The notes beneath the pieces were generated by a model. It had not been told where the DNA came from. It was given only the letters and a program-made list of their open reading frames with translations, and did not search any database. A DNA stretch of 64,000 nucleotides from Lacibacter cauensis (GTDB lineage: Bacteria; Bacteroidota; Bacteroidia; Chitinophagales; Chitinophagaceae), in the NCBI RefSeq assembly GCF_007830055.1, contig NZ_VLLE01000003.1:682001-746000 (forward strand), given 5' to 3'. Positions within the stretch are counted from its first letter, which is position 1, and each line of letters opens with the position of its first letter. Shown piece after piece: positions 28,548 to 54,589 of the stretch. Made by a program: the position numbers and the translations under genes.

Positions 28548-31232
28548 ATGAAAAAAATAATTGTTCTATTTTCCCTTGTTTTTAGTGCTCATTTTATTTC
28601 TGCACAAACAGTACCTGCGTATAAACGTGCCGATCTTCCGGTTGATGTTCGGGTAAAAGATCTGCTGCAACGGATGACAGCAGAAGAAAAATTCTGGCAA
28701 CTGTTTATGATCCCCGGCGATCTCGGTACAAACCCATCTGATTACAAGAATGGCATTTTTGGTTTCCAGGTAAATACCGTGCAGCAACAGCAGGGAGCAG
28801 CGGCACAATTGCTTAATTACAAGTCGGGACAAACTGCACAGCAAACATTGGCAAAGATCAATGCCATTCAAAAATACTTTGTAGAGCAAACAAGATTGGG
28901 CATTCCCATTATTGCATTTGATGAAGCATTGCATGGATTGGTGCGTGATGAAGCAACTGTATTTCCTCAATCCATTGCCTTAGCAGCAACATGGGATACA
29001 ACGCTGATGAATAATGTTGCCGCTGCTATTGCAAAAGAAACGAAAGCAAGAGGTATTCGTCATATACTTTCACCGGTTGTAAATGTTGCAACAGATGTGC
29101 GATGGGGCAGAGTAGAAGAAACTTATGGTGAAGACCCTTTTTTAAGCTCAGTGATGGGTGTTGCATTTGTAAAAGCATTTGAACAACGGGGAGTGGTAAC
29201 TAATCCAAAACATTTTGCAGTGAATCATGGTGAAGGAGGAAGAGACAGTTATCCCATTCATTACAATGAACGGTTACTGGAAGAAACTTATTTTGTTCCG
29301 TTTAAAGCGGTGGTGCAGAAAGGTGGAGCAAGAAGTATTATGACGGCGTATAATTCACTCGATGGTTCACCTTGTTCGGCCAACGATTGGTTGTTGAACA
29401 AAAAGCTGCGCAATGATTGGGGCTTTAAAGGTTTTGTATTGAGTGATGCAGGTGCAACCGGTGGTGCTAATGTGCTGCATTTTACAGCTGCAGATTATGC
29501 AGAAGCTGGTAAGAAATCAATCGAGAACGGACTGGATGTAATTTTTCAAACAGCATATGAACATCACAAACTGTTTAATAAATATTTTCTTGATGGCAGT
29601 ATGAATCCTGATGTGATCGATAGCGCTGTTGCAAGAGTGTTGCGTGTAAAATTTGAATTAGGTTTATTCGAGCATCCATACATCGATGAAAGCAAGTTAG
29701 AAAAATGGACAGCCGCCGAACACCGTGCATTAACAAAAGAAGCCGCTGTACGTTCGTTTGTGTTGCTGAAGAATGATGTGTTTGGTAAAAGCGGAGCTTC
29801 TGTATTGCCATTAAATAAATCGTTGAAAAAAATTGCTGTTATTGGAGTTGATGCAATAGAAGCAAGATTGGGCGGTTACAGCGGACCGGGCAATCAGAAA
29901 ATTTCTATCCTGCAAGGTATTCAGCAAAAAGTTGGTAGCAACACACAAGTGAAATATGCAGCAGGCCCGGGCAGGCAACATCGTACATGGACATTTGTTC
30001 CCGGCAATCATTTGTTTACTATGCAAAATGGAAAACGTATAAAAGGTTTGCAAGGAGAATATTTTAACAATGTAACAATGCAGGGGCAACCGGCTCTTAC
30101 ACGAACAGATGAGTCGATCAATTTTCAATGGACATTGTTTTCACCTGATGCTGCTAAGATCAACTATGATTTCTTTTCTGCACGCTGGACAGGTAAAATA
30201 GAAGCACCTGTTACAGGCACTTATAAAATTGGTATTGATGGCAATGATGGATATCGTTTATACCTCAACAATAAACTTATCATCGATAACTGGAAGAAGC
30301 AATCGTATTCAACAAAGTTGGTTGATTTCTATTTTGAAAAAGGCAAAGTATACGATCTGCGTATTGAGTATTTTGAACCGGCAGGTAATGCATGGTTTCG
30401 TCTTATCTGGAATGTAGGTGTTACTGATCATGCAGAAACAAAAATCAACGAAGCGGTTCAATTAGCAACAAGCAGTGATGTTGCAGTTGTTGTTGCAGGA
30501 ATTGAAGAAGGGGAATTCAATGATCGGGCATTATTACAATTACCCGGCTTGCAGGAAGAGTTGATCAAGCGTATTGCAGCAACAGGAAAACCGGTTGTTG
30601 TTTTATTAGTAGGCGGAAGTGCTGTCACTATGAATAACTGGATCGATCAGGTACCTGCTATACTGGATGTTTGGTATCCCGGCGATGCAGGTGGTGAAGC
30701 GGTTGCGGATGTATTGTTTGGTGATCGTTCGCCATCAGGTAAGTTGCCGATTACATTTCCTGTATCGGAAGCGCAGTTGCCATTAGTGTACAATCATAAA
30801 CCAACAGGAAGAGGTGATGATTACAACAATCTTACCGGTCAGCCTTTGTTTCCGTTTGGATTTGGTTTGAGTTATACGCAGTTTAGTTATTCCGATTTAC
30901 AGTTAGATAAAAAGCAGGTCAAGGCTGGAGAAAATCTTACAGTAAAATTCAAATTAAAGAACACCGGAAAATACAAAGCAGATGAAGTAGTACAGTTATA
31001 CCTGCACGATGAACTGGCATCTGTTGCAAGACCGATCAAAGAGTTAAAAGGTTTTCAGCGCATCACGTTAAACCCGGGTGAAGAAAAAGAAGTAACATTT
31101 ACGATTACTCCCGATTTGTTGACGATGCTGGATGTGCATCTGAAAGAAGTAATTGAGCCGGGTATGTTTCGTATGATGATCGGCAGCTCCAGCACAGACA
31201 TCCGGTTGAGAGAATTGTTTGAAGTGAAATAG
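28548..31232 (+). CDS. GH3 beta-glycosidase with PA14 insert
   Basis: Secreted glycoside hydrolase family 3 enzyme, 894 residues, signal peptide 1-20 (ending ISAQ). The N-terminal TIM-barrel has the KHFAVNHGE motif (K221-H222) and the nucleophile region FVLSDAGAT, with D300 as predicted nucleophile. The C-terminal alpha/beta sandwich is interrupted by a PA14 domain (about 498-624, KGLQGEYFNN to WFRLIWNVG), as in some beta-glucosidases where PA14 shapes the substrate pocket. A fibronectin-like domain closes the protein. Likely product: beta-glucosidase or beta-xylosidase releasing terminal sugars. It follows the cytochrome/DUF1501 set and may act on the same polymer; that link is inferred. Confidence 0.9.
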   Translation: MKKIIVLFSLVFSAHFISAQTVPAYKRADLPVDVRVKDLLQRMTAEEKFWQLFMIPGDLGTNPSDYKNGIFGFQVNTVQQQQGAAAQLLNYKSGQTAQQTLAKINAIQKYFVEQTRLGIPIIAFDEALHGLVRDEATVFPQSIALAATWDTTLMNNVAAAIAKETKARGIRHILSPVVNVATDVRWGRVEETYGEDPFLSSVMGVAFVKAFEQRGVVTNPKHFAVNHGEGGRDSYPIHYNERLLEETYFVPFKAVVQKGGARSIMTAYNSLDGSPCSANDWLLNKKLRNDWGFKGFVLSDAGATGGANVLHFTAADYAEAGKKSIENGLDVIFQTAYEHHKLFNKYFLDGSMNPDVIDSAVARVLRVKFELGLFEHPYIDESKLEKWTAAEHRALTKEAAVRSFVLLKNDVFGKSGASVLPLNKSLKKIAVIGVDAIEARLGGYSGPGNQKISILQGIQQKVGSNTQVKYAAGPGRQHRTWTFVPGNHLFTMQNGKRIKGLQGEYFNNVTMQGQPALTRTDESINFQWTLFSPDAAKINYDFFSARWTGKIEAPVTGTYKIGIDGNDGYRLYLNNKLIIDNWKKQSYSTKLVDFYFEKGKVYDLRIEYFEPAGNAWFRLIWNVGVTDHAETKINEAVQLATSSDVAVVVAGIEEGEFNDRALLQLPGLQEELIKRIAATGKPVVVLLVGGSAVTMNNWIDQVPAILDVWYPGDAGGEAVADVLFGDRSPSGKLPITFPVSEAQLPLVYNHKPTGRGDDYNNLTGQPLFPFGFGLSYTQFSYSDLQLDKKQVKAGENLTVKFKLKNTGKYKADEVVQLYLHDELASVARPIKELKGFQRITLNPGEEKEVTFTITPDLLTMLDVHLKEVIEPGMFRMMIGSSSTDIRLRELFEVK

Positions 31233-31241
31233 TTTCTGTCG

Positions 31242-31353
31242 TTGTCTGACGCCCTCGTCTGACAACCATGTTTCGACATGAAACAACAAAGCGATTGAAT
31301 GTTGAATCGCTTTGTTGTTAGTAAGTAATTTGTCAGACGAGGGCCTCAGACAA
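31242..31353. repeat. nested inverted repeat with inner terminator-like hairpin
   Basis: The outer arms at 31242-31265 and 31330-31353 are inverted copies with 23 of 24 bases matching; each contains GTCTGAC twice or nearly so. Inside, a perfect 15-bp stem (31282-31296 with 31305-31319) has an 8-nt loop. It sits between convergent GH3 and hemL genes. The inner hairpin can act as a terminator in both directions; the outer arms exceed what a terminator needs and may be a small mobile or REP-like element. Confidence 0.7.
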
Positions 31354-31354
31354 A

Positions 31355-32641
31355 TCAAACAAGTTCCTGCAAACTTTCTTTGGTTGCAGCAATGGTCTTA
31401 TCTAAATCTGCATACGTTAATGCATTGTTGAGGAACCAGCTTTCAAAAGCAGATGGCGGCAAATACACCCCACGCTTCAACATAGCATGAAAATATTTTT
31501 TGAACAGTTCATTATTGGCTGATGCTGCTGTTGCAAAATCAACTACTGCATGATCACTGAAGTGAATGCTGATCATTGAACCAAGTTGGTTAATGATATA
31601 TGGTTGCCCCCATGCTTTCAATACTTCGTTCAATCCATCCCGCAAGTAAATGGTTTTTTCTTCCAGCTCTTTGTAAATAGAGGGATTGTTCTTTAACTCT
31701 GTGAGCAATGTATAACCGGCGATCATCGCAATCGGGTTGCCACTCAATGTTCCGGCCTGGTACACATTTCCCAACGGAGCAATGTGCTGCATAATTTCTT
31801 TCTTACCACCAAACGCACCAACAGGCATACCGCCACCAATCACTTTTCCATACGTAACAAGATCTGCTTTAATGCCGAGACGTTCCTGTGCACCACCTGC
31901 TGCTAAACGGAAGCCCGTCATCACTTCATCAAAAATGAAAACGATTCCTTCGTCATCACATAATTGGCGTAAGCCTTCATGAAAACCGGGCTGTGGTAAA
32001 ATACAACCCATGTTGCCTGCAACAGGCTCTACAATGATGGCTGCAATATCTCCTTTATGTTCTGCTGCTAATTTCTTCACTGCATCGAGATCATTATACG
32101 CAGCAGTTAATGTATCGTTCGCTACACCAGCCGTTACGCCGGGCACTGTTTGAATGTTGAAGGTGGCCACACCGCTGCCTGCTTTTACCAAAAATGAATC
32201 CGCATGACCGTGATAATGTCCTTCAAACTTGATGATCTTATTTCGTCCTGTATAACCTCTGGCCAAACGAATGGCACTCATGCAGGCTTCGGTTCCGCTG
32301 CTCACCATGCGGATCATGTCAACATTCGGTACCATGCTGAGAATTAACTCAGCCATTTCAATTTCCAATTGCGTAGGTGCACCAAACGAAGTTGAATCCA
32401 ATGCTTTTTCCTGAATGGCTTTGACAATGGGTTCATGTGCATGACCAAGAATCATGGGTCCCCATGAAGCAATGTAATCGATGTATTGATTACCATCTGC
32501 ATCATACATGTAAGCACCTTTTGCTTTTTGCATGAAGAGTGGCGTGCCACCTACACTTTTAAATGCACGTACGGGGGAGTTAACTCCACCCGGAATACTT
32601 TTCTGTGCCCGTTCGAATAGTTCTTTGCTTTTTTCGTACAT
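31355..32641 (-). CDS. hemL: glutamate-1-semialdehyde 2,1-aminomutase
   Basis: PLP-dependent enzyme that converts glutamate-1-semialdehyde to 5-aminolevulinate, the second step of the C5 heme route; cytosolic. 428 residues, the normal length. Class III aminotransferase features are seen: [10 protein letters not shown] at the N-terminus, [39 protein letters not shown] (D238) and the PLP lysine K266 in [10 protein letters not shown]. It is the last gene of the minus-strand heme operon, separated from hemB by a heptad element that encloses a four-helix-bundle gene. One heptad arm begins 6 bp upstream of its ATG and could affect its ribosome access. Confidence 0.96.
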
Positions 32642-32646
32642 AGTTC

Positions 32647-33117
32647 TGAATGGTCAATGGTGAATGGTCAATGAGATGCCTTCGCTTCAATCAGTCCGCT
32701 TAAAAGCTTAAAGCATTTGATCATTGATTCACCAAGTTTAGTTAAATCGTAATTGTTTAAATATTCAATATCTTTTGCAACATCCAGCGCTGCATCAATT
32801 TCAATAACAGAGCCTCTGGCAATTTCGTAGTATCGTTTTCGTTCAACTTCCGACTTTCTGGAAGAGCCTTCTGCAATATTCAGATGGACAGATAGTGCAG
32901 CTCTTCTGATTTGTGAAATCATTCCGAATTTTTCATCGGCAGGAAAGATCTTGGTTAACTTATAACACTCAAGTGTAAATGTTTTTGAGAAGTTATAGAT
33001 ATCCAGTTTTTGGTGGTTTAGGGTTAGAAACATGGTAAACGATTAAAGGTGATAAATGAACTGTAGCTACAAAATAGTAATTAAGCTTGGCATTCACAAT
33101 TCACCATTGACCATTCA
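32647..33117. mobile_element. heptad element A: inverted 7-bp arrays enclosing a four-helix-bundle gene
   Basis: The left arm at 32647-32673 and the right arm at 33091-33117 are inverted copies with 25 of 27 bases matching. Each arm is built of 7-bp units of the CATTCAC/CATTGAC type. Between them lies one gene, for an S23/IVS-type four-helix-bundle protein, whose stop codon is inside the left arm. The unit interrupts the hemB-hemL spacing. Calling it mobile is inference from the matching solo copies elsewhere in the window; no target-site duplication was identified. Confidence 0.5.
32668..33033 (-). CDS. four-helix-bundle protein (S23/IVS type), copy A
   Basis: 121 residues of the four-helix-bundle family first described as ORFs in intervening sequences of 23S rRNA and related to the Avd protein of diversity-generating retroelements. 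Diagnostic phrases: LDIYNFSKTFTLECYKLTKIFP, then FGMISQIRRAALSVHLNIAEGSSR and KRYYEIARGSVIEIDAALDVAKDI. The basic faces suggest nucleic-acid binding, known for Avd; the cellular role of the stand-alone family is unknown. It lies between hemB and hemL, enclosed by inverted heptad arrays, and its last codons and stop come from the repeat. Not related to heme synthesis by sequence; it looks like a passenger of the repeat element. Confidence 0.85.
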   Translation of the reverse strand: MFLTLNHQKLDIYNFSKTFTLECYKLTKIFPADEKFGMISQIRRAALSVHLNIAEGSSRKSEVERKRYYEIARGSVIEIDAALDVAKDIEYLNNYDLTKLGESMIKCFKLLSGLIEAKASH

Positions 33118-33128
33118 CAAATAGTGTC

Positions 33129-34106
33129 TTAGTGGTTTAAAATTCTTATTGCGTCTTTTGCAAAATAGGTTGCAATCAAATCAGCACCGGCACGCTTAAT
33201 CGACGTTAGCACTTCCATGATGGCTTTGTCTTCATTGATCCATCCTTTTTCTGCTGCTGCTTTGATCATGGCATATTCACCACTGATGTTGTAAGCACTT
33301 ACCGGAACATTCACGGCATTCTTTACTTCACGGATGATGTCTAAATAACTCAATGCAGGTTTCACCATTACAATGTCTGCACCTTCTTCCACATCCATCA
33401 CAGTTTCTTTAATGGCTTCAATGCGGTTGGCATAATCCATCTGGTAGGTTTTCTTATCACCAAAGCCCGGGGCACTATCCAGCGCATCACGGAAAGGACC
33501 ATAGAAGCAGGAAGCATATTTTGCACTGTAGCTCATAATACCCACGTTGATGAAATTATTTTCTTCCAGTCCTTTTCTTATTGCACCAATACGTCCATCC
33601 ATCATATCGCTGGGCGCCACCATATCAGCGCCTGCTGCTGCATGAGAGATACTCATCTTCACCAAGGCTTCGACCGTTTCATCGTTAACAATCTGCCCAT
33701 CTTTCACAATGCCATCATGACCATACGAAGAATATGGATCGAGAGCCACATCTGTCATCACATACATTTCAGGCACCGCATCTTTAATGGCTTTTATGCT
33801 GCGTTGCATCAGTCCGTCTTTATTCCATGCTTCTTTGCCGGTGTTATCTTTTAATTCATCTTTCGATTTTACAAAGAGCAACACAGCTTTCAAACCCATG
33901 CTCCAGAGTTCTTTCACTTCGTTCACCGTTACATCTAAACTGTTACGATAGTAACCCGGCATGGAAGTAATTTCCGTTTTTACATTCTCGCCTTCATCAA
34001 TAAAAAGCGGAACAATGAAATCATCCGGCGTAAGAATGGTTTCTCTTACCATGCTTCTGATGGCTTCTGATTTACGGGTGATTCTGTTTCTTCTTTGTAG
34101 ATACAT
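33129..34106 (-). CDS. hemB: delta-aminolevulinic acid dehydratase (porphobilinogen synthase)
   Basis: Condenses two 5-aminolevulinate molecules to porphobilinogen; cytosolic, usually octameric. 325 residues. The two Schiff-base lysines are visible as K196 (SYSAKYASCFYGPFRDA) and K249 (MVKPALSYLD). The metal segment at residues 119-132 begins DVALDPY and ends GHDG, with aspartates where zinc-type enzymes have cysteines, so a magnesium-dependent form without the catalytic zinc is expected. It lies in the minus-strand heme operon between two element-borne four-helix-bundle genes. The heptad arrays begin 4 bp upstream of the ATG, an unusual setting for translation initiation. Confidence 0.96.
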   Translation of the reverse strand: MYLQRRNRITRKSEAIRSMVRETILTPDDFIVPLFIDEGENVKTEITSMPGYYRNSLDVTVNEVKELWSMGLKAVLLFVKSKDELKDNTGKEAWNKDGLMQRSIKAIKDAVPEMYVMTDVALDPYSSYGHDGIVKDGQIVNDETVEALVKMSISHAAAGADMVAPSDMMDGRIGAIRKGLEENNFINVGIMSYSAKYASCFYGPFRDALDSAPGFGDKKTYQMDYANRIEAIKETVMDVEEGADIVMVKPALSYLDIIREVKNAVNVPVSAYNISGEYAMIKAAAEKGWINEDKAIMEVLTSIKRAGADLIATYFAKDAIRILNH

Positions 34107-34110
34107 AAAT

Positions 34111-34712
34111 GATGTCTGATGTAGGATGGATGATGTCTGATTTGTTTCAGTTCAACCAGCCTGATTTTTTATGTCTGATGTAGAATGGATGATGTGTGAT
34201 TTGATTTAGCACAATCAACCTGTTCTTCATTAAAAAGAACGGCTGATTTTCAGCTTCATAAATCCTAGATCATAAATCAGATATCCTACATCCGATTTTG
34301 TTTCGTTTTATTCGTTTTATCTGTTGCAGCAAAGATGGCCGTTAATTCATTCGCTTCCTTAATCAATCTATCCAACTCTGATCCCGCTTGCAATTTTGCA
34401 TCTTTTACAACTTCCAGCCAGTAATGACTTTCGTCTGCTTCTTCTAAAACAATTTCAATTTTATAAAGAAAGTCTGCCGGTGATTTTGCTCTGACAGACG
34501 CTCTGTAATTTGCTCCAACAGATCCTGCAGAACGAATCAGCTGTTTTGCTGTTTCAAATCCTGCGGCATTTTTCGGAAAGGCTTCACATAAATGAATGAC
34601 ATCTACATGAAATTTTTTTGTTCGGCTTTGTAGTGTTTTTCGATCCATGGATAGTTTTTCTAAGAAAGTTACAAACGATCAGCAACAAATCCGACATCCT
34701 ACATCAGCCATC
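34111..34712. mobile_element. heptad element B: second family of 7-bp arrays around a four-helix-bundle gene
   Basis: The arrays use a different heptad, of the ACATCCT/ACATCAG type. Two copies run one way (34111-34143 and about 34171-34205). Two run the opposite way (about 34275-34298, which includes the stop codon of the enclosed gene, and 34688-34720). The core at 34111-34128 is an inverted copy of 34695-34712 with 17 of 18 bases matching. The 179 bp between hemB and the enclosed gene consist mostly of these arrays. Same architecture as element A, different sequence family. Confidence 0.5.
34286..34648 (-). CDS. four-helix-bundle protein (S23/IVS type), copy B
   Basis: 120-residue member of the same superfamily as copy A but of a clearly different subfamily. 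Key phrases are TLQSRTKKFHVDVIHLCEAFP, AKQLIRSAGSVGANYRASVRAKS and FLYKIEIVLEEADESHYWLEVV. The C-terminus is Lys/Thr/Asn rich (TDKTNKTKQNRM), and its last codons and stop are read from a heptad array. It lies between hemF and hemB, flanked by element B repeats. As with copy A, nucleic-acid binding is plausible and no heme function is suggested. The pairing of one protein subfamily with one heptad family is the notable point. Confidence 0.82.
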   Translation of the reverse strand: MDRKTLQSRTKKFHVDVIHLCEAFPKNAAGFETAKQLIRSAGSVGANYRASVRAKSPADFLYKIEIVLEEADESHYWLEVVKDAKLQAGSELDRLIKEANELTAIFAATDKTNKTKQNRM

Positions 34713-34718
34713 CTACAT

Positions 34719-35684
34719 TTAACAGGAGTTCGATCTCTTTGCCCAGGCAACTCTTTCTGCTTCACTTATTTCATTCAGCCAATCTCTCGGGTGCAAACAG
34801 GCTTGTAGCAATTTATCTTCTTCACTTCCCGGTTGCGGTTGATAATTATATTCAAAACGCACAGTAGGAGGTAAGCTCATCAAAATACTTTCAATGCGTC
34901 CGTTGGTTTTTAAACCGAAAATTGTTCCTCTGTCGTGCACTAAATTAAACTCCACATATCTGCCTCTGCGTATTTCCTGCCAGTGTTTGTTTTCTACAGT
35001 GTAAGCAGTTTGTTTTCTTTTTTCTACAATCGGAACATACGCATCAATAAATGCGTTGCCGCATTTTTGTGCAAACTCAATCCAGAAGTTCACATCCTTC
35101 TTTTCGTCGGGACGTTGATGATCGTAAAAAATACCACCGATGCCTCTGCGCTCTTTGTTGCGATGCCAGTTTACAAAATAGTTATCGCACTCTTCTTTGA
35201 ATTTCGGATAGAAGGTTGCATCAAATGCATCGCAGGCATCTTTATAGGTTTGATGAAAATGTTTTGCATCTTCTTCCATCAAGTAATAGGGAGTGAGATC
35301 TGTGCCACCGCCAAACCATCTATCGATCACTACATCGTTTTCGTTGTACAACTCAAACATGCGGTAATTACAATGCACTGTTGGTACAAATGGATTAATG
35401 GGATGAATCACTAAACTTAAGCCACAGGCGAACCATTTGCTGCCGTTGATTTTTAACTGTGTTCTCATCGCATCGGTTACATCGCCAAACACAATAGAAG
35501 TGTTCACCCCACCTTTCTCAAGCACATCACCATTGGCGATCACACGTGTTTTGCCACCACCACCTTCGGCACGGTGCCATTCATCTTCCACAAATACAGC
35601 TTTGCCATCGCACTGCTCCAACGCAGCACAAATGCGATTCTGCAAATCGTGAATGAATGCTATCCAGGTTTGTTTTACGTCCAT
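34719..35684 (-). CDS. hemF: oxygen-dependent coproporphyrinogen III oxidase
   Basis: Uses O2 to decarboxylate two propionates of coproporphyrinogen III, giving protoporphyrinogen IX; cytosolic or peripheral. 321 residues, close to the usual 300. Conserved stretches: GGGGKTRV with VLEKGGVNTSIVFG, then SLVIHPINPFVPTVHCNYR, WFGGGTDLTPYYL, and GRYVEFNLVHDRGTIFGL with ESILMSLPP. The anaerobic counterpart hemN is also in the window, so the cell can make heme with or without oxygen. It lies between hemE (a 74-bp gap filled by a solo heptad palindrome) and the four-helix-bundle gene B. Confidence 0.96.
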   Translation of the reverse strand: MDVKQTWIAFIHDLQNRICAALEQCDGKAVFVEDEWHRAEGGGGKTRVIANGDVLEKGGVNTSIVFGDVTDAMRTQLKINGSKWFACGLSLVIHPINPFVPTVHCNYRMFELYNENDVVIDRWFGGGTDLTPYYLMEEDAKHFHQTYKDACDAFDATFYPKFKEECDNYFVNWHRNKERRGIGGIFYDHQRPDEKKDVNFWIEFAQKCGNAFIDAYVPIVEKRKQTAYTVENKHWQEIRRGRYVEFNLVHDRGTIFGLKTNGRIESILMSLPPTVRFEYNYQPQPGSEEDKLLQACLHPRDWLNEISEAERVAWAKRSNSC

Positions 35685-35688
35685 ATAA

Positions 35689-35767
35689 TTGTGAATAGTG
35701 AATGGTGAATTGTCAATGGGTTCTTACATTCAGATATTCACCATTGACCATTGACCACTCACAATTT
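35689..35767. repeat. solo heptad palindrome between hemE and hemF
   Basis: Left array 35689-35719 (units such as TTGTGAA and TGGTGAA), a 14-nt spacer, then right array 35734-35767 (CCATTGA, CCACTCA), partly complementary. It fills the whole hemE-hemF gap, and its right arm contains the hemE stop codon (35759-35761). Same family as element A, without a gene. Confidence 0.7.
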
Positions 35768-36790
35768 ATATTCCTTCACTGCCTCTACAAATGCTTTTGC
35801 ATGATCAACAGGAACATTTGGTGTAATACCATGACCTAAGTTGGCAATGTATCGCTGTGTACCAAATGCATCAATCATTTCTTTCACTGCTTTCTTGATC
35901 TCAGGAATGGGTGCTAATAATTTAGCGGGATCAAAATTACCTTGAATGGTGATATTGTTCTGCGTAAACTCTCTTGCCATTTGCGGCGTAATACACCAAT
36001 CAATACCAACGCCACTTGCAGCACTTTCACTGATATCTTTCAACGCATGCCATGTTCCTTTTGGAAAAAGAATGACAGGTGCATCATCTTTCAACGCTTC
36101 TGCAATCTGGAATAAATAAGGTTGTGCAAATGTTTTAAAATCGGCTGGTGATAAAGAACCTGCCCAACTATCGAACACCTGCACGGTGTCTGCACCGGCT
36201 TTTACCTGATGCTTCAAATACACAATGGTAATATCGGTTATCTTCTGTAAGAGTTGGTGTGCCATTGCAGGTTCTGTATAAGCAAACTGTTTTGCTTTAT
36301 CCCATGTTTTGCTGCCTTTACCTTCTACCATATAACAAAGAAGCGTCCATGGTGCACCGGCAAAACCAATGAGTGGTACACGACCATTCAATTCTCTTTT
36401 TGTTAAGCTCAATGCATCGTACACATATTTCAAACTTTCTTCGGCACCGGTAGTGATCAATGCATCAATATCTGTTTGTGTTTTGATGGTCTTTGGCAAG
36501 GATGGTCCTTTCCCTTCTTCCATCAATACTTCCACACCCATCGCCTGCGGTATTACCAGAATATCACTGAAGATGATGGCTGCATCTACACCCACCTGAT
36601 CAACAGGTTGCAAAGTAATTTCCGTTGCAAGCTCCGGTGTTTGGCAACGGGTGAAAAAATCATATTTCTCCCGCAGCTTAATATAGTCAGGTAAATATCT
36701 TCCTGCCTGGCGCATCATCCACACGGGTGGGCGTTCTACTGCTTCTCCTCTGAGTGCTTTTAGTAATAAGTCGTTTTTTAACTGTGTCAT
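35759..36790 (-). CDS. hemE: uroporphyrinogen decarboxylase
   Basis: Removes four acetate carboxyls from uroporphyrinogen III to give coproporphyrinogen III; cytosolic, cofactor-free. 343 residues from the ATG at 36790. The hallmark [17 protein letters not shown] is near residues 20-36; [42 protein letters not shown] and [10 protein letters not shown] follow. The frame stays open to 36847, but that extension is read from a heptad repeat (residues such as [16 protein letters not shown]), so the start [10 protein letters not shown] is preferred. Its stop codon is supplied by another heptad palindrome. Within the minus-strand heme operon. Confidence 0.95.
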
Positions 36791-36870
36791 AGTCGTGAGT
36801 TGTGAGTCGTTCGTCGTCAGTTGTGATACATGGGTATTTGCACTCACGATTCACCATTGACGATTCACGA
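36791..36870. repeat. solo heptad palindrome between hemD and hemE
   Basis: Left array about 36791-36827 (AGTCGTG, AGTTGTG units), short spacer, right array 36841-36870 (CACGATT, CACCATT units), roughly inverted copies. It fills the 74-bp gap. The right arm holds the hemD stop codon (36865-36867), and the left arm abuts the hemE ATG. Confidence 0.65.
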
Positions 36871-37566
36871 AAAATATTCCATCGCCTGCCGCACCAGTTC
36901 GTCTTTGCCGGGTGCTTTGCCTACGATGATGGTATTGTTACAATATTGTTGGATTGTTTTTGCTGTTGTATTACCAATGGCAAACAAAATTGTTTGCGCA
37001 GGTACTTTATTGTTGCTGAAAAAACTGCTTACGGCACTGGGACTGTAAAATAAAACGGCCTGGTACTCTTTACTTATTTTGTGTGGTGTGTGAATGGTTT
37101 CGTACACCAGAATTTCCTGCACATCAATTCCACGTTTGCGGAGGATGGCTGGTAACTCATCTCTGCGTTGTTCGCCGCAAAAGAAAATCACTTCATCCGT
37201 ATCACTTTCTTCTGCAATACGTTCAGCAAGTTCGGTGGCGTTATTGGCAGTACCTGCAACACTGTGCACGCTAAAACTTTCCTGCAGTAATTTTTTGGTG
37301 GTATTGCCCATGCAATAAATGACCCAGTCGGGCTGTTGATCATCTTGCCAGGCAAGTACTGCTGTTACTGCATTCATGCTGGTAAAAACTACTGTTGCAG
37401 ATTGCAGGTAGGCCTGTTCAATTTCCTGCTGTACTTCTACCGTTTGAATCGGCTCGGTTTCGATGAAGGAAAGTTCATCAATAACGATGCCTTGCTGCAA
37501 TGCTTCTGCAACAAGCGAACGGGATAGTGGCCGGGTAGATAATATGTTGATTTTATTTTCCTGCAT
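36865..37566 (-). CDS. hemD: uroporphyrinogen-III synthase
   Basis: Cyclises hydroxymethylbilane with inversion of ring D to uroporphyrinogen III; cytosolic. This poorly conserved family is recognised here by ILSTRPLSRSLVAEALQQGI at the N-terminus, ATVVFTSMNAVTAV, EVIFFCGEQRRDELP, and AVLFYSPSAVSSFFS with ILFAIGNTTAKTI, together with its position after hemC. 233 residues from MQENKINIL at 37566, which gives a 14-bp overlap with the hemC end and probable translational coupling; a start at 37599 is possible but less natural. The stop codon lies in a heptad palindrome. Confidence 0.92.
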   Translation of the reverse strand: MQENKINILSTRPLSRSLVAEALQQGIVIDELSFIETEPIQTVEVQQEIEQAYLQSATVVFTSMNAVTAVLAWQDDQQPDWVIYCMGNTTKKLLQESFSVHSVAGTANNATELAERIAEESDTDEVIFFCGEQRRDELPAILRKRGIDVQEILVYETIHTPHKISKEYQAVLFYSPSAVSSFFSNNKVPAQTILFAIGNTTAKTIQQYCNNTIIVGKAPGKDELVRQAMEYFS

Positions 37567-38551
37567 GTTTAATACTATCGGCAATGGCTTTTCCGCCATG
37601 CATTAAAATTTCTTCAGCAGCTTCTAATCCAAGATGTGCTGCTTCGGGTATAGAAACAGTGTTTTCGTATTCTGCTTTTTGTTTTCCATCAAGCGAAAAA
37701 ATATTTCCACGGAAATGAATTTCTTCGTCAATCACTTCTGCATAGGCGCTGATGGGTGTTGAACAACCGCCTAATAATGCACGCAAAAACTCCCGTTCAA
37801 TTTTTGTACAGAAAGCAGTGTCGGCATCATTAAACTGTACACAGGCGTCCAGAGCATAATCATCCTCTTCTCTGCACACCACCATAATGGCACCTTGCGC
37901 AGGTGCAGGTAACATCCAATCCAGCTCAATCGAATTTTCAGGTCGAAGGTTAATACGTTGCAATCCTGCTGCGGCAAAAATGGCTGCATCCCAGTTCTCT
38001 TCTTTTAACTTGCGTAAACGTGTGTTTACATTGCCACGCAGATTTTCTACTGCCGAATTCGGATAGCGATGTAACCATTGTGCTTTTCTGCGGATGCTGC
38101 TGGTTGCAATGGTAAGTGGCAAGTGGTGAGTGGTGAGTGTGTTGCCGATAGTTGAAGCGTCTTCATTCACCATTGACCATTCACCATTCACAAATCCTAA
38201 TCGTGTACTCAATTCTTCCCATTCACCTTTCCATACCAACAAATCCTTCACCGGTCCACGTTTCAATACAGCGGCCTGTAGAATGCCTTTGGGTAATTGT
38301 GTAGGTACATCCTTCATAGAATGTACAGCAATATCAATTTTATTGTTGAGTAAAGCACTATCGAGACTGCGGGTAAACACGCCCTGTACACCCATTTCGT
38401 ATAAAGGTGTATTGAGATCAATATCGCCTTCGCTTTTAATGTAAACAAGCTCTGCTTCGTAGCCGTGTTGTGCCAGTAACTGTTTTACCTGTGTGGCCTG
38501 CCAGACTGCTAACTCGCTTTCCCTGGTGCCGATGCGGATAATTTTTCCCAT
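37553..38551 (-). CDS. hemC: hydroxymethylbilane synthase (porphobilinogen deaminase), with a repeat-encoded insert
   Basis: Polymerises four porphobilinogens on a dipyrromethane cofactor; cytosolic. 332 residues from MGKIIRIGTRES at 38551; the family is usually near 310. Conserved: ELAVWQAT, VHSMKDVPTQLPKG (K80-D81), SSIRRKAQW with LRGNVNTRL, and the cofactor cysteine C263 in LLGGCSTP. Residues about 120-147, just before the ATSSIRR substrate-binding segment, are encoded by an 84-bp inverted heptad repeat and look unlike any homologue; 84 is a multiple of three, so the frame survives. The start is 1 bp after the hemA stop; the end overlaps hemD. Activity is expected if the insert forms a surface loop. 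Confidence 0.95.
   Translation of the reverse strand: MGKIIRIGTRESELAVWQATQVKQLLAQHGYEAELVYIKSEGDIDLNTPLYEMGVQGVFTRSLDSALLNNKIDIAVHSMKDVPTQLPKGILQAAVLKRGPVKDLLVWKGEWEELSTRLGFVNGEWSMVNEDASTIGNTLTTHHLPLTIATSSIRRKAQWLHRYPNSAVENLRGNVNTRLRKLKEENWDAAIFAAAGLQRINLRPENSIELDWMLPAPAQGAIMVVCREEDDYALDACVQFNDADTAFCTKIEREFLRALLGGCSTPISAYAEVIDEEIHFRGNIFSLDGKQKAEYENTVSIPEAAHLGLEAAEEILMHGGKAIADSIKHAGK
38110..38193. repeat. heptad palindrome inserted in frame in hemC
   Basis: Left array 38110-38139 (TGGTAAG, TGGCAAG, TGGTGAG, TGGTGAG), a 24-nt spacer, right array 38164-38193 (CATTCAC, CATTGAC, CATTCAC, CATTCAC). The arms are inverted and partly complementary. The total length, 84 bp, equals 28 codons of hemC. 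Confidence 0.85.
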
Positions 38552-38552
38552 T

Positions 38553-39788
38553 TTATTCTGTGCCGGTAGCAATAAACTCATTGATGGCTTCAATATAGTA
38601 ACAGCCACGCTGGTTTTGCTCTTTCATTTTTGATGCCATGCAGTTGATCACTTTCTGAATTTTTTCATCGGCTTTGCTGCAGGCTGTATGATGCGGTTGC
38701 AAAGTTATATATAATGGGGAAGTATGAATTTCTTTCAGCTTTGTTTTTACGGCTTTCAGCACCGGTACATGCTTACGCATCTGGTACCAATCCATAAATT
38801 CGGCTGTATGTTCGGTAATAATCTCTTTGGCTTTTGGTACTTCAGCCTCACGCCTGGCCAGTGTTTCGTCTTTCAGCTTCGAAAGCTCATCTACATTTAC
38901 CAAGGTTACATTAGGTAATTCGGCTGCAGAGGCTTCTACATTGTTCGGAATCGATAAGTCGATCACGAGTTTGCGTTGCGTACCTGCTAACTGCTGTTTC
39001 AGAATGGTTGGTTCAGCAGAGTTGGTTGCCACCAGGATAATGTCTGCTTCGGCAATTTTTTCGCTCAGTGCTTCTATTGGTGCCGAAAACAAACCAAGCT
39101 CTTCTGCCAATGCAGCTGCTTTTTCTTCGGTACGGTTAATAAGCGTAATATTTTTTGTACCCAGGTAATCTACCAGGTTTTTACAAGTGTTACGTCCAAA
39201 CTTACCGGTACCCAGCAACACAATTTTTTTGTTGCGGATCTGTTTTACATGCTCACGAATAAATTGTACAGCAGCAAAAGAAACCGAAACAGTACCATCG
39301 CTTAGCCGGGTGTTATTCTTAATGGCCTTGCTTGCCTGCAGCATACAGTTGACTAAACGCTCGGTAAATGCATGGATGCGTTGCTGTTGCTTGGCAGTTT
39401 TTGCAGCTTGTTTAATTTGTCCTACAATTTCATAATCGCCAAGTATCTGCGAATCCAATCCGCCGCCTACATGAAACAAATGATCAATCGCCGCTTTTCC
39501 TTTTTTTACGTAAGCCCTTGCTTTAAACTCTTCCATGCTGCCTTCTGTTTGGCTGCAGAGCAGTTGCTCCAGCTGCATAGGTTCATCTGCAAAACCATAA
39601 ATTTCGGTGCGGTTACAGGTAGAAACTACAAAGGTTTCCTGTACACCAAATTCGGGAGCCTGTTTCAGTAGGGTTTCGTATTGATCGGGAGAAAGAGCAA
39701 AACGGCCACGCATTTCTGCATCTGTTTTGCGGTAGTTGATACCCGCAATAAAAAATTTCGATATGTCTTTTGTGCCGTTTTTGTGCAT
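38553..39788 (-). CDS. hemA: glutamyl-tRNA reductase
   Basis: NADPH-dependent reduction of glutamyl-tRNA to glutamate-1-semialdehyde, the committed and usually regulated step of the C5 heme pathway. 411 residues from MHKNGTKDI at 39788. Seen: FFIAGINYRKTDAEMRGRF, the catalytic cysteine C58 in VVSTCNRTEIYG, GGGLDSQILGDYEIVGQIK, the Rossmann motif LLGTGKFGRNT near 184, and VDLSIPNNVE. The open frame extends to 39833, but this crosses a TAnnTTTG element, so the downstream ATG is preferred. First gene of the minus-strand heme operon, divergent from hemH, with hemC following after 1 bp. Confidence 0.95.
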   Translation of the reverse strand: MHKNGTKDISKFFIAGINYRKTDAEMRGRFALSPDQYETLLKQAPEFGVQETFVVSTCNRTEIYGFADEPMQLEQLLCSQTEGSMEEFKARAYVKKGKAAIDHLFHVGGGLDSQILGDYEIVGQIKQAAKTAKQQQRIHAFTERLVNCMLQASKAIKNNTRLSDGTVSVSFAAVQFIREHVKQIRNKKIVLLGTGKFGRNTCKNLVDYLGTKNITLINRTEEKAAALAEELGLFSAPIEALSEKIAEADIILVATNSAEPTILKQQLAGTQRKLVIDLSIPNNVEASAAELPNVTLVNVDELSKLKDETLARREAEVPKAKEIITEHTAEFMDWYQMRKHVPVLKAVKTKLKEIHTSPLYITLQPHHTACSKADEKIQKVINCMASKMKEQNQRGCYYIEAINEFIATGTE

Positions 39789-39814
39789 GGTGATTGTACC
39801 AAAAATCTCAAGCG

Positions 39815-39822
39815 CAAAAGTA
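39815..39822 (-). promoter_or_regulatory. predicted -7 element of the hemA operon
   Basis: TACTTTTG on the minus strand, 26 bp before the hemA ATG; a TTG lies 16 bp further upstream. It probably drives hemA-C-D-E-F-B-L. The 39823-40009 divergent region between hemA and hemH shows no gene. Confidence 0.5.
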
Positions 39823-40009
39823 ACCTCGGGCATCGCATCAACCTAAAAATTCTGTCATTGCATTGTCAAAAGAAAAAGTGATTTTAATCAGTTGAACGAG
39901 TGCTCATTATCAATGAAAAACCGTAGCAGAAAATGCATCAATTCATTACCTGAATAAGACATTTCGTACAAGTTTTCGTGCAGATTGAACTTTTCTTTTG
40001 TAATGCGGT

Positions 40010-40017
40010 TACTTTTG
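40010..40017 (+). promoter_or_regulatory. predicted -7 element of hemH
   Basis: TACTTTTG, 18 bp before the hemH ATG, with a TTG at 39985-39987 upstream (22-bp spacer). It uses the same octamer as the divergent hemA promoter. Confidence 0.5.
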
Positions 40018-40035
40018 CAAACGATTTAAAATTTC

Positions 40036-41091
40036 ATGGCACAAGCAATACGAAAAGGAATTCTGCTGATGAATCTTGGTTCGCCCGATTCAACCGAGGT
40101 AAAAGATGTACGCAGGTATTTGAACGAATTTTTGATGGATGAACGGGTGATTGATATTCCTTATCTGATCCGTGCTTTACTGGTAAAAGGAATTATTGTT
40201 CCTTTTCGTGCACCAAAATCGGCCAAAGCGTATCAAAGCATCTGGACGGATGAAGGCTCGCCTTTGATTGTGTTGACGAAGCAATTACAACAGGCCGTGC
40301 AAGATGAAGTAAGTTATCCTGTTGAAATTGCCATGCGTTATGGTAATCCAACGGTACAACACGCCTTTGCACAGCTGATGCAGAAAGCGCCTGAGCTGGA
40401 TGAAGTGATTGCGGTTCCGTTATATCCGCACTATGCCATGTCATCGTATGAAACTGCGGTAGAAAGTGTAAAAGAAATTCATGCAAAAGGAAATTATCCT
40501 TTCCAGTTAAATTTTATCAAGCCTTATTACAATAACACCGAGTATATCGATGCGTTGGCAGAAAGTATTAAACCTTACCTGCAACAGGAGTTTGATCATA
40601 TTCTGTTCAGCTATCACGGAGTGCCCGAACGGCATATTCGTAAAGGCGATACAACCGGTTGTCATTGTTTAAAAGTAAATGATTGCTGTAATGTTGATTC
40701 GGCAGCACATACACAATGCTACCGCCATCAATGTGTGGTAACAACAAAACTGGTTGCAAAAAAACTCGGTTTGCCCGAAGGTAAATTCGGTTTTTCATTT
40801 CAGTCACGTTTAGGAAAAGAAGAATGGTTAAAGCCCTACACTGCCAAACGTTTTGAGGAAATGCCAAAAGAGGGGATTAAAAAATTATTGGTGGCTTGTC
40901 CGGCATTTGTGAGCGATTGTTTGGAAACACTAGAAGAAATAGCAGAAGAAGGGAAGGAAGATTTTATGCATCATGGCGGCGAATCGTTTACCATGATTCC
41001 CTGTTTGAATATACATCCCATGTGGGTGAAAGCAGTTGCGGGCTGGGCCAACAATGTAGCAGCAGGAGAGAAGGAGATGGTGCTGGCTTAG
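40036..41091 (+). CDS. hemH: ferrochelatase
   Basis: Inserts Fe2+ into protoporphyrin IX (or coproporphyrin III) at the membrane face. 351 residues. Seen: GILLMNLGSPDS at the N-terminus; VAMRYGNP-like EIAMRYGNPTV; PLYPHYAMSSYETA; FSYHGVPERHIRKGD with the catalytic histidine; FSFQSRLGKEEWLKPYT; and CPAFVSDCLETLEEI. A cysteine-rich loop with GCHCLKVNDCC near 207-217 is found in a subset of ferrochelatases and may bind an iron-sulfur cluster or metal. Divergent from the hemA operon, with hemJ 144 bp downstream across a heptad element. Confidence 0.95.
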   Translation: MAQAIRKGILLMNLGSPDSTEVKDVRRYLNEFLMDERVIDIPYLIRALLVKGIIVPFRAPKSAKAYQSIWTDEGSPLIVLTKQLQQAVQDEVSYPVEIAMRYGNPTVQHAFAQLMQKAPELDEVIAVPLYPHYAMSSYETAVESVKEIHAKGNYPFQLNFIKPYYNNTEYIDALAESIKPYLQQEFDHILFSYHGVPERHIRKGDTTGCHCLKVNDCCNVDSAAHTQCYRHQCVVTTKLVAKKLGLPEGKFGFSFQSRLGKEEWLKPYTAKRFEEMPKEGIKKLLVACPAFVSDCLETLEEIAEEGKEDFMHHGGESFTMIPCLNIHPMWVKAVAGWANNVAAGEKEMVLA

Positions 41092-41092
41092 A

Positions 41093-41235
41093 GGTCAATG
41101 GTCAATAGTGAGTGGTGAGTGCCGTGCTGTGTGCACCATGGGGCTGTGTAACTTTTATATGAACTTTGTAATGTTAATTTATAATGTTTGGTGTTGCTGT
41201 CTTTAATTGACTGTTCACCATTCACCATTCACATC
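41093..41235. repeat. heptad arrays between hemH and hemJ
   Basis: Left array 41093-41120 (GGTCAAT, GGTCAAT, AGTGAGT, GGTGAGT), which begins 1 bp after the hemH stop. Inverted right array 41206-41235 (ATTCACC units), which ends directly at the hemJ ATG. The 85-bp spacer is longer than in other solo copies. No gene inside. Confidence 0.7.
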
Positions 41236-41781
41236 ATGTATCTCTACGTTAAAGCACTCCACATCATCTTCATCGTTACCTGGTTTGCGGGATTATTCTA
41301 CATGCCCCGTTTGTTTATTTACAATGTTGAGGCCAATCAGAAAGACGAGACCAGCCGTAAAGTATTACAGGAGCAGTTTGGTATTATGATGAAGCGTTTG
41401 TGGTATGGCATTACATGGCCATCGGCAATTCTTACATTCGTCTTTGGGATATGGGTTTTGTTCGAAAGCGGTTATGCAAAAATTGTGTTTGAACCTGCAG
41501 GCAGGTGGATGTTGATTAAACTCATTTTTGTTGTCTTCTTATATCTCTATCATTTTTCTCTGCAGAAAATTCTGAAACAACAACTGGCTGGCGTATTTAC
41601 CTATACTTCACAACAACTCCGCATTTGGAACGAAGTGGCAACCATCTTCTTAGTTGCAGTCGTGATGCTGGTGGTGGTAAAACAAAACCTCAGTGCATTG
41701 TGGGGCGTTCTTGGATTACTGTTGTTTGTGGTATTGCTGATGAGTGCAATTAAGGTTTATAAACTGTTGCGGAAAGCCTGA
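41236..41781 (+). CDS. hemJ: HemJ-type protoporphyrinogen IX oxidase
   Basis: Inner-membrane protein of 181 residues that oxidises protoporphyrinogen IX to protoporphyrin IX, replacing HemG/HemY. Four membrane helices are visible. The N-terminal MYLYVKALHIIFIVTWFAGLFYMPRLFIY is close to the family signature, with the conserved H9 and the helix-1 arginine; YGITWPSAILTFVFG, GRWMLIKLIFVVFLYLYHF and LRIWNEVATIFLVAVVMLV follow. The open frame begins at 41188, but the first 16 residues are read from a heptad array, so the ATG at 41236 is preferred. It completes the path between HemF/HemN and HemH. Confidence 0.9.
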   Translation: MYLYVKALHIIFIVTWFAGLFYMPRLFIYNVEANQKDETSRKVLQEQFGIMMKRLWYGITWPSAILTFVFGIWVLFESGYAKIVFEPAGRWMLIKLIFVVFLYLYHFSLQKILKQQLAGVFTYTSQQLRIWNEVATIFLVAVVMLVVVKQNLSALWGVLGLLLFVVLLMSAIKVYKLLRKA

Positions 41782-54516: not shown

Positions 54517-54579
54517 ATAGCCGATAGTTGATAGTAGCAAGCATAGCCGCTATTGACCATTCACCATTCACCATTCACA
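54517..54579. repeat. solo heptad element between rbfA and a permease gene
   Basis: Left array GATAGCC, GATAGTT, GATAGTA begins directly after the rbfA stop. After a 12-nt spacer the right array has CATTGAC-like and three CATTCAC units, ending 10 bp before the permease TTG start. The right arm is the element A heptad; the left arm has diverged. Confidence 0.65.
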
Positions 54580-54589
54580 AAAACATCCC

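Follow-up and report, generated by a model that had tools for sequence, protein, structure and literature searches.

A heme (hem) operon within a 64,000-nucleotide stretch of the Lacibacter cauensis genome (contig NZ_VLLE01000003.1, positions 682,001 to 746,000; hereafter the window) was found to contain two genes of the PF05635 family (23S_rRNA_IVP), designated 4HB-1 and 4HB-2 for the four-helix bundle (4HB) fold, each flanked by inverted arrays of 7-nt units (heptads). Such arms proved to be a general rule around 4HB genes, far wider than the hem locus, and heptad and protein were inherited, and replaced, together as a cognate pair. These elements are probably mobile hairpins with a cognate 4HB protein, one habitat of which would be the intervening sequences (IVSs) of 23S rRNA genes that bear an open reading frame (ORF).

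Both genes scored above the family cut-off (104.3 bits for 4HB-1 and 58.6 bits for 4HB-2), and their products share 21% identity. The heptads of element 1, which surrounds 4HB-1, are GTGAATG/GTCAATG-like (equivalent to CATTCAC), while those of element 2 are GATGTAGG-like (equivalent to ACATCCT). A preliminary description of the window had proposed five elements of one architecture, two of them enclosing S23/IVS-type genes and three gene-less; the period-7 arrays, their inverted order and the PF05635 matches bore this out. The predicted structure of 4HB-2 is a four-helix bundle (pLDDT 95.8), the closest solved structures in a structure search being the S23-family proteins 2RLD and 2GSC; the fold match to Avd, the accessory protein of diversity-generating retroelements, was weaker (TM 0.75–0.77, E 0.04 or worse, identity 6–11%). 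The solved member of the S23/Avd-type fold is a pentamer.

Arms around 4HB genes in the genus and beyond

The genome of the window (G000) contains 12 4HB genes, and each of the 14 genus genomes analysed (G000 to G013) between 1 and 16. These genomes rendered 117 PF05635 matches, of which 113 were used (two from G007, one from G001 and one from G005 were left out). When the 250 nt on each side of every gene were compared, complementary arms (score of at least 14) were present at 89 of the 113 genes, as against 17 of 896 mismatched pairings of upstream and downstream flanks and 1 of 100 other G000 genes; at least one armed member was found at 38 of the 44 genus sites. A broad set of 80 4HB loci, chosen by protein similarity alone from GTDB genomes and mostly from Bacteroidota judging by record title, gave a similar picture, with arms at 52 loci compared with 31 of 787 mismatched pairings. 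The pattern extends beyond Chitinophagaceae: among the 18 broad loci titled as other phyla (one Algicola-titled locus being omitted as ambiguous), 11 were armed, namely those from ANME-1, two Anaerolineales/Anaerolineaceae, Phycisphaerales, Omnitrophota, Pontiellaceae, Geobacter, one Nomurabacteria, an Oscillatoriales cyanobacterium, and metagenome-assembled genomes titled Bifidobacterium and Oscillospiraceae, both labels being doubtful. The seven without arms came from Methanophagales, one Anaerolineales, SAR324, Limnohabitans, one Nomurabacteria, Treponema and Ignavibacteriales. Four cyanobacterial plasmid records, including a near-identical pair, also had arms.

Autocorrelation of the flanks reached maxima at 7, 14, 21 and 28 nt (lag-7 value 0.358 versus 0.275), and the best period was 7 in 75 of the 89 armed genus elements and 44 of the 52 broad ones, the remainder having periods of 5, 8, 9 or 10. 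The median arm measured 28 nt, that is, four 7-nt units, the 5′ arm ending a median of 44 nt before the start codon and the 3′ arm starting 4 nt past the stop. Some loci differed from this scheme. Best arm periods of 8 to 10 were seen in Flavobacterium and in an ANME-1 archaeon (L351, L361, L332), and one-sided runaway arrays of ∼9 to 28 heptads were seen upstream of three 4HB genes (L072, L091, L034). At one site with two 4HB genes (L026 and L027) the arms resemble the GGCACAAAG-type repeat, which may therefore be a further arm family.

The elements lie in operons, in the sense direction. Both neighbours were in the same orientation as the 4HB gene in 95 of the 113 genus cases (37 of 44 sites) and in 62 of the 80 broad loci, a situation found for 149 of 320 other G000 genes; both neighbours were antisense in only 4 of the 113 (2 of 44 sites) and in none of the broad loci. 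An antisense case was observed in Nostoc edaphicum. Such placement suggests that the elements rely on the host transcript. The 4HB genes are under purifying selection, the median pN/pS of the closest pair at each of 21 sites being 0.10, and in-frame stops (written X when protein distances were calculated) were present in 5 of the 113. One of these genes is the 4HB-2 orthologue of G008 (L117), which has an in-frame TGA and retains its arms. A comparison of the protein of locus L038 with phage records rendered no match.

Joint inheritance of heptad and protein

When same-site elements were compared across genomes, protein distance and heptad distance rose together (ρ = 0.81, for 118 non-independent pairs). 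At site 23, the proteins of G000, G008 and G011 diverge by ∼40% from those of G001, G002 and G009, and the heptads of the two groups are unrelated; at site 42, protein (∼40%) and heptad likewise differ jointly between G008 and G010 on the one hand and G002, G005, G009 and G011 on the other, while the arms of G007 match either group poorly. The same relationship was seen between unrelated sites. Where protein distance was below 0.35 and the flanking 1.4 kb showed no similarity, 14 of 18 pairs had a heptad in common, compared with 15 of 1979 at protein distances of at least 0.6, the pairs in both counts having members in common. Common heptads had the same orientation with respect to their genes; sharing as reverse complement was zero up to a protein distance of 0.7 and concerned at most 0.001 of pairs above it. 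In Mantel tests restricted to period-7 elements (84 of 124 that passed the arm and period filters, the 124 being the 80 broad loci plus one element for each of the 44 genus sites), the observed association was equalled in 4 of 2000 permutations for the genus and in 0 of 2000 for the broad set. The earlier proposal that each protein has its own heptad family was thus upheld, both by the pairs at unrelated sites and by the allelic element types.

The preliminary description had also suggested comparing orthologous hem operons for empty sites. The hemB-hemL gap, which holds 4HB-1 in G000, was present in eight relatives, of which only G004 has an orthologue of the gene; the gap is empty in G002, G010 and G011, and holds other hairpin repeats in G001, G003, G008 and G009. 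At hemF-hemB, 4HB-2 is present in G000 and, interrupted by the in-frame stop, in G008, whereas the gap is short in G010 and G011. In loci L050–L057, hairpin repeats of the types AAGACACGAAGGCGCAAAG.., TTTCACGCAAAGG.. and CCCCGACAGCGGTT.. stand in place of the 4HB element at these two gaps. Alleles without a 4HB gene were found at 12 sites in total; some of these alleles are clean, others carry a gene-less hairpin built of another heptad, so the related genomes do not all hold the same elements at the same sites. At the hemD-hemE gap, a heptad or heptad-like pair occupies the same spot in all nine genomes compared, in about four types judged by eye, and at hemE-hemF such a pair is present in 8 of 10 genomes, in three types, also by eye. 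Since the hairpins persist at these gaps while their heptads change, they seem to be replaced in place.

To sample gene-less arrays, 2.12 Mb were taken from five genomes, none of the called 4HB genes lying within the samples by their coordinates. The strict array detector rendered 98 arrays in this sequence and 6 in Markov-resampled copies, so arrays exceed chance. Sixty-three of the 98 lay outside ORFs of at least 100 aa, even though such ORFs make up 86% of the sequence. As had been proposed, gene-less copies reuse the heptads of 4HB elements: 82% were within a distance of 0.12 of a 4HB heptad, compared with 24% of column-permuted controls. The 4HB heptads of the same genome also fitted better than most random sets of the same size in G000 (53 of 2000 random sets), G002 (22 of 2000) and G010 (18 of 2000). 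Arrays were used as the unit because a strict hairpin scan yielded few hits (two heptad hairpins in 184 kb, window included). Adjacent array pairs among the 98 comprised six inverted and no direct ones; a relaxed partner search (score of at least 12) found inverted partners for 14 of the 98, compared with 0 of 98 in resampled flanks, and direct partners for 6 of the 98, so most gene-less arrays have lost their partner or never had one. The arrays showed no preference for co-directional gaps (39 of 59, versus 356 of 563), within which they lay a median of 30 nt past the upstream stop. A gene-less family with a defined, fixed loop was sought and rejected: the query found one copy of 93% identity in the adjacent gap of G001, and the hem gaps of G002, G008 and G009 yielded copies of 86–94%; elsewhere, matches were at most 84% over most of the length, or covered the arms only. 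In G008 (L274, 6975–10657) and G001 (C22, 138107–143112), gene-less hairpins of one family cluster at successive spots no more than a few kb apart, an arrangement resembling that of the hem operon.

A dependence of heptad copy number on the matching protein, also predicted earlier, was assessed by counting exact dimers of four heptads in all 14 genomes, carriers of the cognate 4HB gene being labelled by eye and the GTGAATT/GTGAGTA arms of G010 being counted as GTSAATG. Carriers had more dimers (one-sided P = 0.036, 0.012, 0.033 and 0.061 for the four heptads). The combined test, which like the locus-based version below is uncorrected for kinship between genomes, gave 0 of 20000 permutations for the 14 genomes and P = 0.0022 for a core of 10 more closely related genomes (without G006, G007, G012 and G013), in which no single heptad family was significant. 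After subtraction of matches within 4HB arms the values were 5 of 20000 and 218 of 20000, respectively. The prediction therefore stands in moderate form, the effect being weaker when counted by loci.

Proposed mechanism and its rivals

The reading that we consider probable would be as follows. The element would be compact (∼0.5 kb), opening with about four 7-nt units and a leader of ∼45 nt, continuing with an ORF of ∼100–140 codons and closing with about four units in inverted order. Placed sense in an operon gap, it would probably be read from the host transcript, and its arms could form a hairpin either as RNA or as single-stranded DNA. The 4HB protein would act in trans and would most likely recognise the heptads of its own arms, while gene-less hairpins would be derivatives with the same heptads, kept or spread in trans, an idea to which the array statistics lend moderate support. 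Cutting and copying would be performed by enzymes encoded outside the element, and an ORF-bearing 23S rRNA IVS would be the same element located in an rRNA gene. A bolder version can be advanced only tentatively, and we judge it somewhat improbable as a whole: a widespread class of mobile elements with no recombinase of their own, in which a pentameric 4HB protein reads a private, changeable 7-nt hairpin code and, with host enzymes, both copies and overwrites cognate hairpins in operon gaps, the 23S rRNA IVSs, cyanobacterial arrays, trnL P6b stems and Xanthomonas GGGAATC repeats being its traces. If it were true, many unlinked genomic heptad repeats would be substrates of a known but unexplained protein family, the repeat specificities would form a large natural series of protein-repeat pairs, and a single account would cover a protein family of solved structure but no assigned function, the excess of intergenic heptamers and the origin of 23S rRNA IVSs.

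Several observations weigh against a mobile element with a cognate protein. The coupling of protein and heptad has exceptions at site 23, where the GTACGA heptad of the G001, G002 and G009 group also occurs in G007, at a protein distance of 0.37–0.38, and where G010 is a third type. The first Mantel test in the genus, with one element per site, gave no significant association (145 of 2000). The majority of same-site orthologues appear to have been inherited vertically and thus give no support to recent activity, and no clear target-site duplication, as would mark a MITE or insertion sequence, was seen when element-bearing and element-less alleles were compared by eye, the flanks having diverged and no systematic search being made. 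Simple transposition fails to explain the hemD-hemE hairpins, kept in nine genomes with changing heptads. Own-genome heptads fitted gene-less arrays no better than random sets in G004 (961 of 2000) and G008 (257 of 2000). When carriers were compared by loci, the values rose to 7–47 of 20000 for the 14 genomes and 489–954 of 20000 for the core 10, the ranges arising because locus counts for G008–G011 are bounds derived from dimer counts. ACAAGG dimers are most numerous in G010 (34) and number 11 in G000, neither of which has a detected ACAAGG-type 4HB gene. The earlier idea of an autonomous/non-autonomous pair was thus supported by the coupling and by heptad reuse, and weakened by this ACAAGG peak, by an own-genome fit in only three of five genomes and by the hemD-hemE heptad change. 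Among close orthologues (site averages, 20 sites), single-arm changes far exceeded compensated ones (71.6 versus 8.9). No catalytic domain was found in the element. A reverse transcriptase (RT; RVT_1, PF00078) was undetected in 8 of the 14 genomes, all with 4HB genes and including the one with 16, and a Y1 transposase, present in the other 13, was undetected in G010, which has five 4HB genes. Published comparisons add two further points: the account of the Coxiella IVS considers it unlikely that S23p is produced and terms the ORF expendable (PMC4990558), and the heptad repeats of Xanthomonas and Nostoc are described as generally not associated with insertion sequences or transposons (PMC4692102).

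An alternative that we regard as unlikely holds that these are RNA-processing elements, the arms forming a double-stranded RNA stem that serves as a substrate of RNase III, or as a binding site of the 4HB protein, and separates cistrons; the heptads would spread passively and the protein would be a post-transcriptional regulator, not a mobility factor. The sense placement inside operons fits such a role, as do the long stem predicted around 4HB-1 (32644–33122, z −3.34), the retention of the hemD-hemE array pair in 9 of 9 genomes despite heptad change, and the excision of the Coxiella IVS, in which RNase III is reported to cut at the first heptamer repeat (PMC4990558). Selection on an RNA stem, however, left no sign in the mismatches between arms, where G-U did not exceed A-C (119 versus 134, in 141 elements), and the majority of arm changes are uncompensated, although positions changed on both arms exceeded chance (15.0 versus 5.5 expected, with 8.9 of the 15.0 still paired, all as site averages for the 20 sites). 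Each arm thus seems to conserve its heptad more than its exact complementarity to the other arm. A conserved heptad fits a recognition sequence, in DNA and RNA alike, and RNA processing leaves unexplained why heptads track the protein at unrelated sites. It is quite improbable, too, that a resident Y1 (RAYT-like) transposase or RT acts on the hairpins and mobilises them in trans, with the 4HB protein as a helper, as Avd is for the RT of diversity-generating retroelements. This idea draws on the fold match of 4HB-2 to Avd, the wide distribution of Y1 transposases and the REPIN-like anatomy (PMC3116915), but the absence of RVT_1 and Y1 matches in the genomes named above argues against it; neither enzyme is universal among the 14 genomes, so neither looks like a standing requirement, and both were rejected as a required partner. 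The window was earlier said to contain no transposase, integrase or RT; for the two families tested, PF00078 and PF01797 (Y1_Tnp), this is accurate, each having two matches in the G000 genome and none in the window. A third possibility, that slippage and template switching generate intergenic heptad palindromes with 4HB genes as passengers, appears very remote. The one-sided runaway arrays of L072 and L091 are in its favour, and so is the order of the heptads, palindromic to a degree that placed 6 of 31 elements in the top 4% but was weak beyond family sharing (18.7 versus 16.9). A by-product of this kind would not, however, be expected to associate with a single protein family, nor to show the same heptad beside similar proteins at unrelated sites.

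Of the known systems, the ORF-bearing 23S rRNA IVS is like the present element in having a PF05635 ORF enclosed by a stem of terminal inverted repeats. In Coxiella, the IVS carries three (two in some strains) tandem GACAGAT heptamers and a degenerate one before the S23p ORF, its RNA is excised, and the report describing it cites older proposals of IVS mobility (PMC4990558). The element thus matches ORF-bearing IVSs in protein and stem, and that of Coxiella in heptamers, but not in rRNA location: those of the window are in the hem operon and not in a 23S rRNA gene, and the elements in general occupy operon gaps flanked by protein genes, are numerous, fall into many heptad families and have gene-less counterparts. 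Unlike the probably unmade Coxiella S23p (PMC4990558), their ORFs are under purifying selection. A search of the open-licence PMC literature found no work tying S23/4HB genes to heptad arrays, the Coxiella IVS aside, and none that links this IVS with the heptad repeats of Xanthomonas, Nostoc and Beggiatoaceae. REPIN/RAYT systems share the inverted hairpin pair, the dispersed gene-less copies and a cognate protein with a co-evolving repeat (PMC3116915). Here, too, dispersed repeats match those beside specific proteins, with moderate support for dependence on the protein, but the protein is a four-helix bundle rather than a Y1 transposase (in G000 the two Y1_Tnp matches fall elsewhere in the genome, and the element proteins of the window are 4HB), the units are 7-nt tandem repeats, and related 4HB genes occupy several sites per genome. 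PF05635 has been noted to resemble Avd (PMC10053308); the fold is indeed shared, but, in contrast to a diversity-generating retroelement, the element contains no RT, and RVT_1 goes undetected in 8 of the 14 genomes, all of them 4HB-bearing.

Heptameric repeats have been described as GGGAATC in Xanthomonas and GGGGA(C/T)T in Nostoc, where they were linked to G-quadruplexes (PMC4692102). That study reports 186 arrays in Xcc and 183 in Xac, most of which comprise four units; inverted pairs number 70 in Xcc and 75 in Xac and are few in Nostoc, and the Xanthomonas repeats are mostly intergenic, a mean of 28 nt past the upstream ORF (PMC4692102). Unit number and distance from the upstream stop are alike in the present arrays, whereas in the portion of that report cited here no protein is linked to the repeats (PMC4692102). 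The solved S23 protein XCC0516 (2GSC) comes from Xcc. The P6b stem of the Nostoc tRNA-Leu intron is built of heptads of Class I (TDNGATT) or Class II (NNTGAGT) (PMC4476775); like the hemD-hemE pair, it is a 7-nt-unit hairpin at a fixed site whose class has been replaced between lineages, but it lies in a cyanobacterial group I intron and no 4HB gene is mentioned in the cited part of that work (PMC4476775). A paper on Beggiatoaceae describes TAACTGA arrays that also occur in Bacteroidetes and Cyanobacteria. In two Calothrix brevissima plasmids (L407, L408) that share a stretch, a gene annotated as phage integrase family immediately precedes the S23 element.

Elements of the window

The two gene-bearing elements are on the reverse strand. 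Element 1 (479 bp) consists of a 5′ arm of GTGAATG-type heptads upstream of 4HB-1 (33090–33122), the 4HB-1 gene itself (32668–33033, 121 aa, between hemB and hemL) and an inverted 3′ arm (32644–32676) that is predicted to fold with the 5′ arm around the ORF; both arms were called as period-7 arrays. Element 2 is composite, with additional inverted arrays downstream of its gene. Its arrays fail the strict detector and were called by Tandem Repeats Finder, in the case of the 5′ arm of GATGTAGG/GATGTCGG heptads (34689–34718) and of the second inverted ACATCCT-family array (34109–34141), or by eye, in the case of the first inverted array of that family (34170–34205) and of an array immediately 3′ of 4HB-2 that is oriented like the 5′ arm (34258–34300). 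The 4HB-2 gene (34286–34648, 120 aa) lies between hemF and hemB. No family match was obtained in an Rfam search of 31000–41500 up to E 0.1.

The strict detector called 12 arrays in the window. The three gene-less copies of the preliminary description are a hairpin of GTCAATG heptads in the hemE/hemF gap (35685–35768; RNA fold z −3.72), a decayed pair in the hemD/hemE gap whose arm-to-arm fold is no longer clean (36790–36871) and a pair within the hemC ORF, in frame (38105–38200). That tally of five elements was incomplete, since the detector added a pair immediately 3′ of hemH with a spacer of ∼80 nt (41092–41234) and a single ATTCACC array whose partner arm does not match it (54547–54584). 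The three gene-less copies other than that of the hemE/hemF gap fold weakly (z −2.0 to −2.1). The pair in hemC corresponds to a loop of the HemC protein that exceeds its counterpart by 11 residues when compared with four relatives and by 20 when compared with another four; heptad-like coding sequence is also present in this length-variable loop in several relatives (L042, L044, L045 and L046).

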